Positions 14,096 to 24,325 of a stretch of DNA of 64,000 nucleotides are shown piece by piece (position 1 is the stretch's first letter; every line of letters starts with the position of its first letter). Under the pieces are notes generated by a model. It was given only the letters and a program-made list of their open reading frames with translations. It ran no database searches and was not told where the DNA came from. The translations under genes were made by a program, and so were the position numbers. Origin of the DNA: Pectinatus haikarae (GTDB lineage Bacteria > Bacillota > Negativicutes > Selenomonadales > Selenomonadaceae); assembly GCF_015732185.1 (NCBI RefSeq), contig NZ_WIQM01000016.1, positions 124,001 to 188,000 of the forward strand. The letters are read 5' to 3'.

Positions 14096-14194
14096 AATAT
14101 TACCATGTGATCCATATCCACAGTATCAAATCTCCCTCCCTATCTCTCGCAGGTATAAGTATCGGTAAATGAGCACCAACACTAACGGTGATGT

Positions 14195-14365
14195 TAAAAC
14201 AGGCAGTTCTCCTGGCTCAGATTCATCATTTTTTCAAGCCTTCCCAAAGCTTCTGCTTCAGTGGCACAGTTTGAAAAATTCATCTTCACAGTGGCGGGAC
14301 CGCTCCGGCTTCATACCGGATTCCCTATTAAGTCATTTCTGACACCTGTCTCCAACTATATTCAA
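14195..14365 (-). promoter_or_regulatory. Cobalamin (AdoCbl) riboswitch
   Basis: On the minus strand the conserved elements occur in order: GGTGTCAG, TTAATAGGGAA (14321-14331), GGTCCCGCCACTG (core GCCACTG at 14289-14295), and the B12 box AGCCAGGAGAACTGCCT (14201-14217). This is a full-length aptamer in the leader of the AdoCbl-dependent mutase operon, with two terminators downstream. Most such switches turn genes off when AdoCbl is plentiful; here the regulated enzyme uses the ligand, so an ON switch is worth considering. Confidence 0.93.
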
Positions 14366-19840: not shown

Positions 19841-21130
19841 TCAGACAGCATCAAAAGCTTGTTTCAAATCCCAAATGATATCGTCAATATGCTCAGTACC
19901 TATTGACAAACGAACGGTAGAAGGTGTAATACCGCTCTGTGCCAGTTCATCAGCACTCATCTGTGAATGAGTCGTGCTTGCTGGATGAATAACAAGCGAC
20001 TTCACATCGGCTACATTAGCAAGCAATGAAAATATCTTTAAATGGTCTATGAAATTACGCGCTTCTTTTTCTCCGCCTTTTATTTCAAAAGTAAAGATGG
20101 ATATACCGCCATTAGGAAAATATTTTTTATAAAGTTCATGGTCAGGATTATCAGACACCGCCGGATGATTGACCTTGGCAACCTTCGGATGAGTGCTCAA
20201 AAACTCTACTACTTTAAGTGAATTTTCTACATGGCGTTCAACACGCAGCGATAAAGTTTCTGTTCCCTGCAGTAATAAGAACGCATTAAATGGGGAAAGA
20301 GTTGCCCCCGTATCACGCAGCAGCAATGCACGCAGATATATTGCAAAAGCAGGTGCACCGATATCCTTTGCGAAACTTATACCATGGTAACTAATATTTG
20401 GTTTCACCAAATGGGGGAATTTCCCTGAAGCCACCCAGTCAAATTTGCCGCTGTCAACAATAACACCACCTAATGTAGTGCCATGTCCACCAATAAATTT
20501 CGTAGCAGAATGGACAACTATATCAGCACCGTAATCGAACGGTTTTACCTGATAAGGTGTAGCAAAAGTGCTGTCAACTACAAGTGGAATTTTATGCTTA
20601 TGCGCTACAGCAGCTATCTTTTCTATGTCAATGAGATTGGCATTGGGGTTGCCTATAGTTTCGATGAATATCAAACGGGTATTTTCTTTAACCGCGGCAT
20701 CAAATGCATCTATGCCTTCCGCAGGGTCAACAAATGTTGTAGTTATTCCGCGATCCGGTAATGTATGTTCGAGAAAGTTATATGTACCGCCATAAATAGT
20801 TGTAGCTGAAACAATATGGTGACCTGCATGCGCCAATCCCTGAAATGCATATGCTACGGCTGCCGCACCGGATGCCACCGCAAGACCGGCCACCCCGCCT
20901 TCCAATGCAGTGATGCGTCTTTCAAATATATCTTGTGTGGTATTGGTGAGGCGGCCGTATATATTTCCCGCATCTTTGAGTCCAAAACGATCACTTGCAT
21001 GCTGGCTGTTTTTAAAAACATACGATGTTGTCTGATATATAGGAACAGCTCGTGAATCTGTTGCGGAATCGGCCTGTTCCTGTCCGACATGAAGCTGTAA
21101 AGTTTCAAATTTATACTGATGTTCACTCAT
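19841..21130 (-). CDS. metY: O-acetylhomoserine sulfhydrylase
   Basis: 429 residues, the usual length of the MetY branch of Cys/Met PLP enzymes. It makes homocysteine from O-acetylhomoserine and sulfide in the cytoplasm. The N-terminus FETLQLHVGQ, IYQTTSYVF and NIYGRLTNTT are MetY hallmarks; the PLP lysine is in SATKFIGGHGT, and WVASGKFPHLV lies in the long MetY-specific insert. GAGGT lies just upstream of the ATG. Its transcript begins with a conserved leader and attenuator also present before the sulfite reductase operon, tying both to one sulfur or methionine signal. Confidence 0.94.
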   Translation of the reverse strand: MSEHQYKFETLQLHVGQEQADSATDSRAVPIYQTTSYVFKNSQHASDRFGLKDAGNIYGRLTNTTQDIFERRITALEGGVAGLAVASGAAAVAYAFQGLAHAGHHIVSATTIYGGTYNFLEHTLPDRGITTTFVDPAEGIDAFDAAVKENTRLIFIETIGNPNANLIDIEKIAAVAHKHKIPLVVDSTFATPYQVKPFDYGADIVVHSATKFIGGHGTTLGGVIVDSGKFDWVASGKFPHLVKPNISYHGISFAKDIGAPAFAIYLRALLLRDTGATLSPFNAFLLLQGTETLSLRVERHVENSLKVVEFLSTHPKVAKVNHPAVSDNPDHELYKKYFPNGGISIFTFEIKGGEKEARNFIDHLKIFSLLANVADVKSLVIHPASTTHSQMSADELAQSGITPSTVRLSIGTEHIDDIIWDLKQAFDAV

Positions 21131-21203: not shown

Positions 21204-21284
21204 AAGAAAAAGATCAAAGCATGCCCTCCGCACACTTCGACCTTTAGTTTTCTAATTAGCCAAATGTAATAATGTAATGATATG
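21204..21284 (-). promoter_or_regulatory. Attenuating leader of metY (conserved motif + terminator)
   Basis: The transcript carries ATTACATTTGGCTAATTAG, AAAA, then CTAAAGGTC (motif 21239-21261). A 13-bp hairpin (21230-21242 with 21212-21224, including G-U pairs) and TTTTTCTT follow. The motif's 3' end is the 5' arm of the terminator, so motif binding or refolding could prevent termination. The same arrangement precedes the next sulfur operon. It is not an S-box, T-box or SAM-II consensus. Confidence 0.6.
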
Positions 21285-21290
21285 ATTTAT

Positions 21291-21319
21291 ATATTAGCAT
21301 GTGTTTATTAGGATGTCAA
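21291..21319 (-). promoter_or_regulatory. Promoter of metY
   Basis: Minus-strand TTGACA (21314-21319), 17 nt, TAATAT (21291-21296), with TG before the -10. Start point near 21284. Confidence 0.8.
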
Positions 21320-21350
21320 TAAGAAATAACCATTATATTAAAGCCATATC

Positions 21351-22946
21351 CTAAACTATGGCTGCATTTTTCAGCCTGTCGATCCCTTCTCTATTTACAA
21401 AAGATGTAAAATTTTCTCCGGGCAGAGAATTTTTTTTATAAAAAAGAAGCATTTTTTCCAATATAAATTGTACTTCATCCGCATCAGTAAGATCTTTTAT
21501 CTTTTCAGCGAAATGTCCGCACCCTTCCAATGTTCCTCCTGCCCATAAAGTAAAGGCATCTTTGATTCCGTCTTCTGTCTTTATCCGTCCGCCCTGCAGG
21601 CTTATATCTGCAATGTGTTTCTGCCCGCACGAATTTGGACATCCCGTAAAATGAATGCGCACAGGTATTTCCATAGCAATTTTTTTATCAAGATAGCTCG
21701 TCACTTGTCTGGCTCTGTTTTTAGTCTCGACAATAGCCAGATTGCAGAATTCATTTCCAGTACAGGCTACAGTATAGCCAAGAAAATTTTTGGGCATTAT
21801 GGGCAGACGTGTGAAAATGTTCTTTTTGATCAGCTGCGGAACAGCGTTATCATCAATACCGGAAATTATTATATTCTGTGACAGTGTTGTACGAAGCTTT
21901 TGATCTCCGCAGGCATCCGCTATTGAGGCAAGTTCAGCCAAATCCCTGGCAGTTATTTCACCAAAAGGAATATTAAGCCCTACAAAACTTTTTCCTTTTT
22001 GCTTTTGCGGATGAATACCATAATAATAGGATGCATTCCATGAAACTGTTTTATCAATACCCGATTTTAGCAGCGGACCGGTGAGCTCTTTTATTTTTGA
22101 CTCGAATTTTTCCACGCCCCAATCATCAAGCAGAAACTTTAGTCGTGCACGGATGCGCTTTTCTCGGTATCCATTATCACGAAAAATAATACATACTGCC
22201 TCGGCTATTTTCAAAACATCCGACTGTCTGGCAAAAATATTCAGTTTTTTTGCCAGATGAGGTGTACTGGAAAGACCGCCGCCCAGCCAAACATGAAATC
22301 CCAGAACATCTTCTCCATCAACAGTTTTGATTGCCGGAGTAAACGATATATCATTTATTTGCGCATGTGCAGTATTATAAATGCTGCCAGATATCGATAT
22401 TTTATATTTTCTGGGCAGATTTGAAAAATCTCTGTTTAAAAGGAAAAAATCGTTTACTTCCTTTACTATGGAGCTGGTATCTATCAGTTCTTCTCTATCA
22501 ATACCTGTCAGAGGGTTTCCTACAATAGAACGGGTACAGTCACCGCAGGCTTCAAAGGAACTCATTCCGCAGGACTTTAGTTTGTAAAATATATCAGGGA
22601 TATTTTCTATTTTTATCCAGTGAAACTGCACTGATCCACGTGTAGTTATATTGGCTATGCCTCGTCCGTATTTTTCTGCTATATCAGCCAGCGTTTTTGC
22701 CTGTGCTGCATTCATAATGCCAGATGTCATACGCACCCTGAGCATAAAATATCCATTTTTAGGTTTTTGCTCATAAACACCGGCCCATTTAAAAAGACCA
22801 ATATCTTCGGGATCTATGCTCTCATAGCCTGTTTTTGAATATTTATCGATTATTTCATTGATAATATCAAGACCATCTTTTTTCAGTTTAGTTTTTTCAA
22901 CTGCATTCAGATTTTTATTTTCTGACCATATTGCACTATAAGACAT
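21351..22946 (-). CDS. Ferredoxin-type sulfite (or nitrite) reductase
   Basis: 531 residues with two ferredoxin-like half-repeats and the siroheme/[4Fe-4S] motifs: TGNEFCNLAIVETK, then TGCPNSCGQ about 40 residues on, giving four ligand cysteines. GRGIANITTRGSVQFHWI and GDCTRSIVGNPL are the NirA/Sir substrate-side motifs. Family members reduce sulfite to sulfide or nitrite to ammonia. The sulfite role is favoured because it is 25 nt downstream of a Cys/Met PLP gene, in a transcript sharing metY's leader. No flavoprotein subunit is encoded nearby, so ferredoxin is the likely donor. Confidence 0.82.
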   Translation of the reverse strand: MSYSAIWSENKNLNAVEKTKLKKDGLDIINEIIDKYSKTGYESIDPEDIGLFKWAGVYEQKPKNGYFMLRVRMTSGIMNAAQAKTLADIAEKYGRGIANITTRGSVQFHWIKIENIPDIFYKLKSCGMSSFEACGDCTRSIVGNPLTGIDREELIDTSSIVKEVNDFFLLNRDFSNLPRKYKISISGSIYNTAHAQINDISFTPAIKTVDGEDVLGFHVWLGGGLSSTPHLAKKLNIFARQSDVLKIAEAVCIIFRDNGYREKRIRARLKFLLDDWGVEKFESKIKELTGPLLKSGIDKTVSWNASYYYGIHPQKQKGKSFVGLNIPFGEITARDLAELASIADACGDQKLRTTLSQNIIISGIDDNAVPQLIKKNIFTRLPIMPKNFLGYTVACTGNEFCNLAIVETKNRARQVTSYLDKKIAMEIPVRIHFTGCPNSCGQKHIADISLQGGRIKTEDGIKDAFTLWAGGTLEGCGHFAEKIKDLTDADEVQFILEKMLLFYKKNSLPGENFTSFVNREGIDRLKNAAIV

Positions 22947-22971
22947 ATAAACACACCTTCAAATTATTTTA

Positions 22972-24177
22972 TTATATATCGGCATTCAAAAGCTTGACCT
23001 TCGTTAATGCCTGCCGCAGATCATCGATAATATCCTCAGTATCTTCTATTCCCACGCTAAATCGGAAAAAACCTTTGTGAAATTCTTCGGGATAAAGATA
23101 CTGCCGCTCATCATTTTCTCCCAAAAATACTATCAGACTTTCATCATGTCCAAGGGACACAGCGGATGTAATAACTTTTAACTGGCTGATAAACTTATTG
23201 TGTGTATCATGATCAGCATTTAATCCAAAGGACAGCACTCCGCCAAATCCCGGCGCCATCTGCGCTCTTGCAATAATATGTCCTTTATGTGATTTCAATC
23301 CAGGATATGCCACAAAACGCACACAAGAGAGGCTTTCTAAATATTCGGCAACCTTTTGGGCATTTTCGTTATGCTGTCTCATTCGTAATGGAAGTGTGAC
23401 AGCTCCGCGCATAATCAACCATGCATTAAAAGGACTGATGACGCCGCCAAGATTTATTTGTGCCTGCGCCCTTACAGTATCCAAATAACTTTTTTTGCCG
23501 ATGATTGCCCCACCCAATGCATCTCCATGTCCATTTATATATTTTGTAAGGCTTTCTATGACAAAATCAGCTCCCAACTCTATCGGGCGTTGATTAAACG
23601 GAGAAGCAAACGTATTATCAACAGAAAGCAGCACATTATTAGCATGCGCTACATCAGCAATTTTTTTTATGTCTGAAACCATCAGCGTGGGATTCCCCGG
23701 AGTTTCTATATGTATCAGTCTTGTATTTGATTTCAATACTTTTTTTATATTTTCCGGATCTGTGGTATCAATGATCGATGTTTCTATATTAAATTTATTA
23801 TTTAGAAGCTCGTTAAACAAGCGATATACAGCTATATAGGTGACACTGGAAAAAATTACATGATCCCCGCTTTTAAGAAGAGAAAAAAATAAACCAGAAA
23901 GAGCTGCAACACCACTGGCCAATACTACACAGTCTTCCCCACCTTCCAGTGACGCTAATTTTTCCTGCAGGTATTTCTGATTATTGCCCCCATTGCGCGT
24001 GTAAATGCTTTTGTCGGCACTGCTCCAATTCATATCAGAAGGATCATACGGCAGCTCATAACTATTTGCCATCGTTATAGGCCGCTTAATAGCACCGGTT
24101 TCACTATCTACGTCATTGCCGGTATGCACAGCTCTTGTTTGAAAACCATATTTTTTCCCGTATGCTTTTTTTGCCAT
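22972..24177 (-). CDS. Cys/Met metabolism PLP enzyme (cystathionine synthase/lyase family)
   Basis: 401 residues from the ATG MAKKAYG, which has GAGG 9 nt upstream; two earlier in-frame ATGs lack a ribosome site. TRNGGNNQKYLQEKLASLEGG (in parts), SVDNTFASPFNQRP and the PLP lysine in SLTKYINGHGDA place it in the cystathionine gamma-synthase/gamma-lyase/methionine gamma-lyase family. Which reaction it runs cannot be read from sequence. First in an operon with sulfite reductase, it probably joins reduced sulfur to an activated serine or homoserine; methionine gamma-lyase is an alternative. Confidence 0.85.
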   Translation of the reverse strand: MAKKAYGKKYGFQTRAVHTGNDVDSETGAIKRPITMANSYELPYDPSDMNWSSADKSIYTRNGGNNQKYLQEKLASLEGGEDCVVLASGVAALSGLFFSLLKSGDHVIFSSVTYIAVYRLFNELLNNKFNIETSIIDTTDPENIKKVLKSNTRLIHIETPGNPTLMVSDIKKIADVAHANNVLLSVDNTFASPFNQRPIELGADFVIESLTKYINGHGDALGGAIIGKKSYLDTVRAQAQINLGGVISPFNAWLIMRGAVTLPLRMRQHNENAQKVAEYLESLSCVRFVAYPGLKSHKGHIIARAQMAPGFGGVLSFGLNADHDTHNKFISQLKVITSAVSLGHDESLIVFLGENDERQYLYPEEFHKGFFRFSVGIEDTEDIIDDLRQALTKVKLLNADI

Positions 24178-24210
24178 ATTGATCATCCTCATTCTTTAAA
24201 AATATTTGCA

Positions 24211-24290
24211 GAAAAACAAAAGAGGTCAGAGCACATGCCTGCTGCACATACCCTGACCTTTAGTTTTTCTAATCAGCCAATGTAATCATT
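24211..24290 (-). promoter_or_regulatory. Attenuating leader of PLP-sulfite reductase operon
   Basis: The transcript starts close to ACCAATAATG and carries GATTACATTGGCTGATTAG, AAAAA, then CTAAAGGTC (motif 24255-24278). A 15-bp hairpin follows (24244-24258 with 24224-24238; all positions pair, some G-U), then TCTTTTGTTTTT. CTGA/TCAG plus TTAG/CTAA could form an alternative hairpin that takes the terminator's 5' arm. It matches the metY leader in motif, order and spacing. Confidence 0.6.
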
Positions 24291-24296
24291 ATTGGT

Positions 24297-24325
24297 ATGA
24301 TAGCATGCACAATCCGTTATGTCAA
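24297..24325 (-). promoter_or_regulatory. Promoter of PLP-sulfite reductase operon
   Basis: Minus-strand TTGACA (24320-24325), 17 nt, TATCAT (24297-24302), with TG before the -10. Confidence 0.8.

Follow-up and report, generated by a model that had tools for sequence, protein, structure and literature searches.

Two sets of sulfur genes in Pectinatus haikarae raise the question of how a short leader RNA might tie their transcription to the sulfur status of the cell. Both lie on the minus strand of the 64,000-nucleotide (nt) stretch analysed here (the window; contig NZ_WIQM01000016.1, positions 124,001 to 188,000), one headed by metY and the other by a gene for a pyridoxal phosphate (PLP) enzyme. 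A first-pass annotation had described each leader as a TTGACA-N17 promoter followed by a conserved stretch and an overlapping terminator, and the sequence bears this arrangement out: the two sulfur leaders share a hairpin that overlaps the attenuator. The same annotation suggested a compact riboswitch or a protein-bound antiterminator for sulfur status, a proposal that our comparative data support while leaning towards the protein-bound alternative. We suggest that the hairpin serves sulfur-responsive antitermination, probably through binding of a DUF2292/YezD protein.

The element is 23 to 24 nt long and comprises an outer helix of 4 base pairs, a 2x1 internal loop (R5 and A6 opposite A19), an inner helix of 4 base pairs and an A-rich loop of at least 4 nt. 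Hairpin 1 (GGCTAATTAGAAAACTAAAGGTC, positions 21239..21261, minus strand) has the structure ((((..((((....)))).)))), and hairpin 2 (GGCTGATTAGAAAAACTAAAGGTC, 24255..24278, minus strand) carries a 5-nt loop; for hairpin 2 and for the 23-mer of hairpin 1, the minimum free energy fold is the proposed structure. Covariance model R2 scored them at 34.7 bits (E 6.6e-8) and 27.8 bits (E 9.4e-6), respectively, hairpin 1 being among the 57 sequences that built the model and hairpin 2 outside them. These two copies alone stood above noise in the window, where the next best match had an E value of 0.99. The motif had initially been written as TTACATT(T)GGCT and onward, of which the hairpin from GGCT onward is conserved, but TTACATT stands directly upstream in only 2 of 233 distinct terminator-bearing copies; it was therefore dropped, and the conserved element is the hairpin alone. 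A pattern that included TTACATT found two copies in the genome, whereas the pattern lacking it found four exact copies there and matched 9 of 60 genomes, the own genome included, which places the start of the conserved part at GGCT.

Sequence variation among relatives follows the proposed pairing. A search that allowed at most two mismatches found the element in 36 of the 380 genomes of the window's class, and a reversed control pattern gave 4 matches in 4 genomes. Alignment A3 was taken from the mismatch search with no pairing filter, and its 37 distinct sequences do not include hairpin 2 of the window (5-nt loop), the chance match L030, L075 with its one broken pair, or duplicate 23-mers. 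Within these rows 99.3% of cells were paired, a share that dropped to 13.5-68% in slid controls. Four of the eight pairs changed on both sides, compared with 2.2 in shuffles (22 of 500 reached as high), and 17 cells were doubly changed, compared with 4.1 (0 of 500). The inner helix occurs as UCAG..CUGA and UUGG..CCAA in place of UUAG..CUAA, and the outer helix shows A1-U23, U1-A23 and A2-U22 in place of G-C, positions 22 and 23 having been left free in the search pattern. The 57-sequence set, some rows of which were chosen by pairing, gave a similar picture, except that doubly changed pairs showed no clear excess (4 versus 3.2 in shuffles); doubly changed cells numbered 46 versus 11.4. Rows added to alignment A4 and the 233-copy set were partly or wholly selected by a pattern requiring at least 7 of 8 pairs, and for that reason pair counts from them are biased to the structure. 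The U4-G20 pair occurs in 94 of the 127 different 23-mers of a set that was chosen for pairing. Of the 175 rows whose loop has four bases, 142 had the proposed structure as their energy minimum, and 28 more opened pair 1-23 only. Loops of 5 to 7 nt were found in 58 of the 233 copies, so that loop length ranges from 4 to 7 overall.

The 3' strand of the hairpin doubles as the 5' arm of the terminator, and the two structures are consequently mutually exclusive. In the window, terminator stem 1 (21209..21245, minus strand) has a 5' arm that starts from hairpin position 17, and terminator stem 2 (24223..24259, minus strand) overlaps hairpin 2; each has 16 pairs, rather than the 13 or 15 first reported, and is followed by a T-rich tail. 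Terminator-like sites in the window numbered 8 against 2.3 expected, and both leaders folded far better than dinucleotide shuffles (z of -3.71 and -4.75). Among 346 loci (1.29 million bases, mostly chosen for motif presence and with duplicates included), 378 of 418 structural matches (90%) overlapped a terminator in a fixed register, compared with 4 of 29 (14%) in reversed and 3 of 23 in shuffled sequence from these loci. The Halanaerobium locus L092 and locus L030, where the pattern matched without a terminator, were set aside as chance. Median energies over the 233 copies were -6.3 kcal/mol for the hairpin and -21.5 kcal/mol for the terminator, and the two window hairpins reached -2.2 and -3.2 kcal/mol. 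Because the hairpin is so much weaker than the terminator, termination is likely the default, and read-through would need something that holds the hairpin. In the mechanism we propose, the stronger terminator would form and transcription would stop before the sulfur gene; under sulfur shortage, a trans-acting factor would recognise the internal loop and its flanking pairs and hold the hairpin, allowing RNA polymerase to read through. The most likely factor would be the DUF2292/YezD protein.

The first-pass annotation had anticipated further copies before sulfur genes of relatives, and further copies proved abundant, many of them before sulfur genes. Using R2 at E<=0.01 per genome, a threshold at which about 4 and 3 chance genomes are expected in the two classes, we found the element in 79 of the 380 Negativicutes genomes, the window's class (41 of 102 genera), and in 75 of the 299 from the class that includes G640, presumably Bacilli (35 of 119 genera). 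An earlier, narrower model, R1, had matched 10 of 398 genomes of the phylum. Laxer filters gave 3 to 26 copies per genome in 14 genomes, with 8 in the own genome (7 among the matches listed). A narrow-pattern scan of named genomes returned 25 stretches; 22 of them belonged to records of Pectinatus, Pelosinus, Sporomusa, Propionispora, Megamonas, Negativicutes bacterium or Firmicutes bacterium, and the other three to Peribacillus asahii and a Deltaproteobacteria bin, both with a terminator, and to Halanaerobium saccharolyticum, without one and probably by chance.

Co-occurrence points to DUF2292 as the candidate partner. All 50 motif-bearing genomes sampled have the domain, as do 6 of 30 motif-free ones (Fisher p 4e-15); within the window's family it is present in 7 of 7 motif-bearing and 4 of 15 other genomes (p 0.004), although these p values overstate independence as the genomes are related. 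The sample, picked before the result, consisted of 50 motif-bearing genomes (from the 79 and 75 above, plus G714 and G734) and 30 without a match. Within a single genus, G876 (7 copies) has DUF2292, and G771 lacks both motif and domain. The genes are also linked to the motif: with 152 of 158 motif places entered and domain hits merged into genes by hand, 14 of 27 DUF2292 genes lay within 1 kb of a listed motif, against 0.18 expected, in 9 of 14 genomes. Six genomes (G055, G301, G310, G054, G133 and G137) have DUF2292 itself as the motif's first downstream gene. The protein has a conserved E-x-x-EK segment and mostly takes a tandem two-domain form in one frame in Negativicutes and a single-domain form in the second class; a predicted model of a Pectinatus cerevisiiphilus protein, built with three sequences, displays a repeated helix-hairpin unit (mean predicted local distance difference test score, 76.5). 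B. subtilis was the one species with DUF2292 among 14 well-known genomes used as controls. The ssu operon of that species, a sulfonate operon, as van der Ploeg reportedly found in 2001, is sulfur-controlled at both initiation and termination, and the latter would fit since B. subtilis has DUF2292.

Many of the genes behind the motif serve sulfur supply. The seven listed sites in the own genome precede metY; the PLP enzyme with a sulfite reductase-type protein; an NMT1-type ATP-binding cassette (ABC) transporter; cysK; a class III aminotransferase with an ABC transporter resembling the NMT1-type one; a thiS-thiF-JAB-sulfite reductase-type operon; and a sulfate-type ABC operon running into putative cysD and cysN. 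The cysDN identities, as well as sulfonate or taurine as transporter substrates, are our reading rather than model calls. Other genomes carry the motif before sulfate binding proteins, cysteine synthases, flavin mononucleotide (FMN) reductases (SsuE-type), luciferase-like (LLM) monooxygenases (SsuD-type), a dicarboxylate-family symporter, Sulf_transp (YeeE-type) and Cons_hypoth698 (YeiH-type) transporters, a RuBisCO-like protein, amino acid-type ABC transporters with cystine as a possible substrate, and a nifH-model iron protein and a (2S)-3-sulfopropanediol dehydratase, both above cut-off. Among 141 first-gene clusters, counted over the best 25 of 133 Pfam and the best 25 of 791 NCBIfam families, we found NMT1 (7), sulfate binding protein (6), cysteine synthase (6), Cys/Met PLP enzymes (4) and FMN reductase (4), together with DUF2325 (6), DUF2292 (5), URO-D-type methyltransferases (7) and many single families; first genes were assigned by a simple open reading frame rule, and some doubtful short frames are among them.

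Several downstream genes deserve mention in their own right. Nitrogenase iron protein-type genes stand behind the motif at L168:997 and 1163, L282, L311 and L343, one of them passing the nifH cut-off, and sulfur salvage by a nitrogenase-like reductase is our guess for their role. The small protein DUF2325 recurs beside the motif in G640, G714, G317 and G054, with near copies in G310, G306, G302 and G133. In G317 (L072:759-960), a S-adenosylmethionine (SAM) riboswitch with an apparent terminator of its own is followed by the sulfur hairpin (937-960) and a gene for an NlpA/MetQ-type lipoprotein; the second terminator has no clear T-run, and a two-input leader is possible. In L334 and L335 (G837 and G924), an Rrf2/CymR-type regulator (named by eye), DUF2292, the motif and a sulfate-type ABC operon follow in that order, perhaps placing control of initiation and of termination side by side. 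The sole copy (E<=0.01) in 16 f57 genomes (L193-L208) precedes a MarR-like regulator, for one of which Pfam was checked, and in L312 (G054) the motif is followed by a MarR gene that carries a fused ThiS domain. In two genomes of the second class, a tandem pair of copies stands ahead of a gene that by eye resembles nicotinate phosphoribosyltransferase (L158:4379 and 4636; L326:251 and 373). In G734 (C1:917059-936395; L151 and L152), five similar copies within 20 kb precede an ABC exporter, an acetyltransferase and others; this cluster may be a spread repeat rather than a case of sulfur control.

Besides the relatedness of the sampled genomes, several observations weigh against a DUF2292-dependent sulfur switch. 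The MarR, nicotinate phosphoribosyltransferase-like and G734 targets are not evidently concerned with sulfur. Six motif-negative genomes have DUF2292, and in the window's genome its gene lies more than 133 kb from any listed motif. G000, G002 (2.1 kb), G725, G1043 and G734 have no DUF2292 gene within 1 kb of a listed motif; G1043 has a structural match with a terminator near the gene, and G734 a weaker R2 match beside its DUF2292 genes. Comparison of the DUF2292 model with solved structures gave no Foldseek match at E<=0.001 and a best VIA-align Z of 4.1, with none at or above 5, a null result that implies neither a new fold nor an absence of RNA binding. Finally, DUF2292 may be a mere member of the sulfur regulon, as DUF2325 is likewise linked to the motif yet absent from G000-G003.

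This last point bears on the main rival, in which the hairpin is a small-molecule aptamer (an ON riboswitch) that senses a signal of sulfur starvation, for example O-acetylserine, and DUF2292 is a fellow regulon member. Terminator-embedded aptamers have precedent, as described in passages of PMC6478431. In its favour, A6, A19 and the flanking pairs are invariant across the 57 sequences, which come from more than two classes, and tandem copies, as with riboswitches, precede one operon in L154, L168 and L158, with three copies in L025. The f57 genomes that keep a single copy before one kind of gene would also have no need of a dedicated factor. Nonetheless, we know of no natural aptamer as small as 23 nt with one 2x1 internal loop, no further conserved feature was seen around the hairpin, and the presence of DUF2292 in every motif-bearing genome sampled would have to be a coincidence of regulon content. 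We consider an aptamer possible but somewhat unlikely.

A further alternative, which we regard as rather improbable, is antitermination by another protein, housekeeping or unidentified, with DUF2292 as a co-regulated sulfur gene. The DUF2292 fold search, which gave no RNA-binding relative, would agree with it, as would DUF2325, an example of a small protein linked to the motif without being required: although G000, G002 and G003 have 8, 9 and 8 copies, DUF2325 is absent there, and it was rejected as the trans factor. Known antiterminator domains fared no better as universal factors. Of 21 motif-bearing genomes, 13 lack CAT_RBD (PF03123), including 3 of 5 of the window's genus; GlpP (G3P_antiterm, PF04309) is present in 12 of 21 and absent from 9; and ANTAR (PF03861), whose RNA class is a two-hairpin hexaloop, is present in 19 of 21, the exceptions being G640, with 7 motif copies, and G725, with 6. 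DUF2292 alone of the five tested families, in sets of differing size, was found in every motif-bearing genome examined, which argues against a different protein.

A DNA operator to which a repressor or activator binds, with the terminator incidental, would agree with the element's partly palindromic sequence just after the promoter, but common G-U pairs, variable loop length and terminator overlap in a fixed register are RNA traits, and we find this very hard to credit. Least probable of all are plain constitutive terminators descended from an ancestral repeat, which high sequence similarity within genera would suggest, given that compensatory changes (pairs 1-23, 2-22, 8-17 and 9-16) involve the 5' strand of the hairpin, unused by the terminator, and that copies precede genes of many unrelated operons.

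Comparison with known RNAs agrees with the first-pass statement that no S-box, T-box or SAM-II consensus matched, as Rfam 15 gives nothing at gathering score in the leaders. With S-box/SAM, T-box, SAM-II and PreQ1 included, the window yielded only a Cobalamin riboswitch away from the leaders (14185-14364, minus strand; 115.9 bits, well over the gathering score); the two leaders at E<=10 gave only matches to unrelated families far below gathering score, and 20 related loci gave only one SAM riboswitch, located beside the motif rather than at it. The closest functional parallel is the ribonucleic antiterminator (RAT) recognised by BglG, SacY and LicT, a hairpin of about 29 nt that is held by the CAT_RBD domain of about 55 residues acting as a dimer. 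The present hairpin is likewise small, has an asymmetric internal loop and overlaps the 5' arm of a terminator; it differs in sequence and size (23 versus about 29 nt) and precedes many sulfur genes, not sugar genes. The element would work like a RAT-type antiterminator and is a member of no family tested. By analogy, the DUF2292/hairpin system could well be the sulfur counterpart of RAT/LicT, acting on as many as some two dozen targets in a genome.

A thiS gene behind one copy gave a first lead to the hydroxymethylpyrimidine pyrophosphate (HMP-PP, thiS motif) riboswitch, which is also compact and built into an intrinsic terminator and shares some thiS genes downstream. That class conserves its terminator loop, abnormally well according to passages of PMC6478431, whereas the present element varies in the terminator loop and has its conserved part 5' of the terminator, and the lead was abandoned. 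In the portions of Naville and Gautheret 2010 (PMC2965389) available, an 'ABC-leader' of bacilli is described before alkanesulfonate transporters, and a common element before a sulfonate ABC operon. Like ours, it is a putative attenuator before sulfonate transport genes, although sections 9 and 14 of that article mention no sulfur-wide regulon, hairpin family or partner protein. Excerpts on PBC-10 (Stav 2019, PMC6429828) describe a palindrome close to where a terminator stem begins, with suggested binding of a protein dimer. Either the ABC-leader or PBC-10, compared by description only, may be a glimpse of the present element. Passages on sulfur, cysteine and terminators in PMC8632094 and PMC11109978 held no match to the element. 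As for the protein, portions of PMC6385201 list yezD as unknown and report that its deletion does not lower survival in deep starvation, and those of PMC7921472 give expression changes only. Sequence searches of the PDB with DUF2292 returned nothing useful (best E 0.67 in one and 0.017 in the other, where the match was a designed origami protein), one scan of viral contigs gave no relative, and our literature search, mostly of open-access main texts, recognised no description of the hairpin element or of DUF2292/YezD function.

Returning to the window, promoter 1 (TTGACA-N17-TAATAT; 21291..21319, minus strand) precedes metY and scored 10/12 in the promoter scan, and promoter 2 (TTGACA-N17-TATCAT; 24297..24325, minus strand) scored 11/12. 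The distance from the -10 box to the start of the hairpin is 29 bases for hairpin 1 and 18 bases for hairpin 2. A single rival site scoring at least 10 lies on the same strand of the window, at 22214; the promoter calls are weak on their own because the window has 20 promoter-like sites against 12.9 expected in shuffles. The gene metY (19841..21130, minus strand) encodes an O-acetylhomoserine/O-acetylserine sulfhydrylase (TIGR01326 above cut-off; PF01053). The second leader serves an operon on the same strand with genes for a Cys/Met-metabolism PLP enzyme of the gamma-lyase/synthase family (22972..24192, likely start 24177; PF01053), for which 25 NCBIfam models among the matches listed were all below their cut-offs, and a nitrite/sulfite reductase family protein (21351..22946; PF01077, PF03460), whose NCBIfam matches were all below cut-off as well.

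On balance, we favour DUF2292/YezD as a new family of RNA-binding antiterminators that would act on one 23-nt hairpin and govern a large sulfur-starvation regulon in Negativicutes, Bacilli and some other Bacillota. If so, this would explain how many Bacillota couple the supply of sulfate, sulfonate, cystine and methionine to sulfur status, and it would suggest sulfur roles for genes behind the motif such as DUF2325, DUF1847, YeiH-type transporters and nitrogenase-type reductases. It would also widen the range of known regulatory hairpins by a very small one, and an orphan protein family that B. subtilis shares would gain a function.

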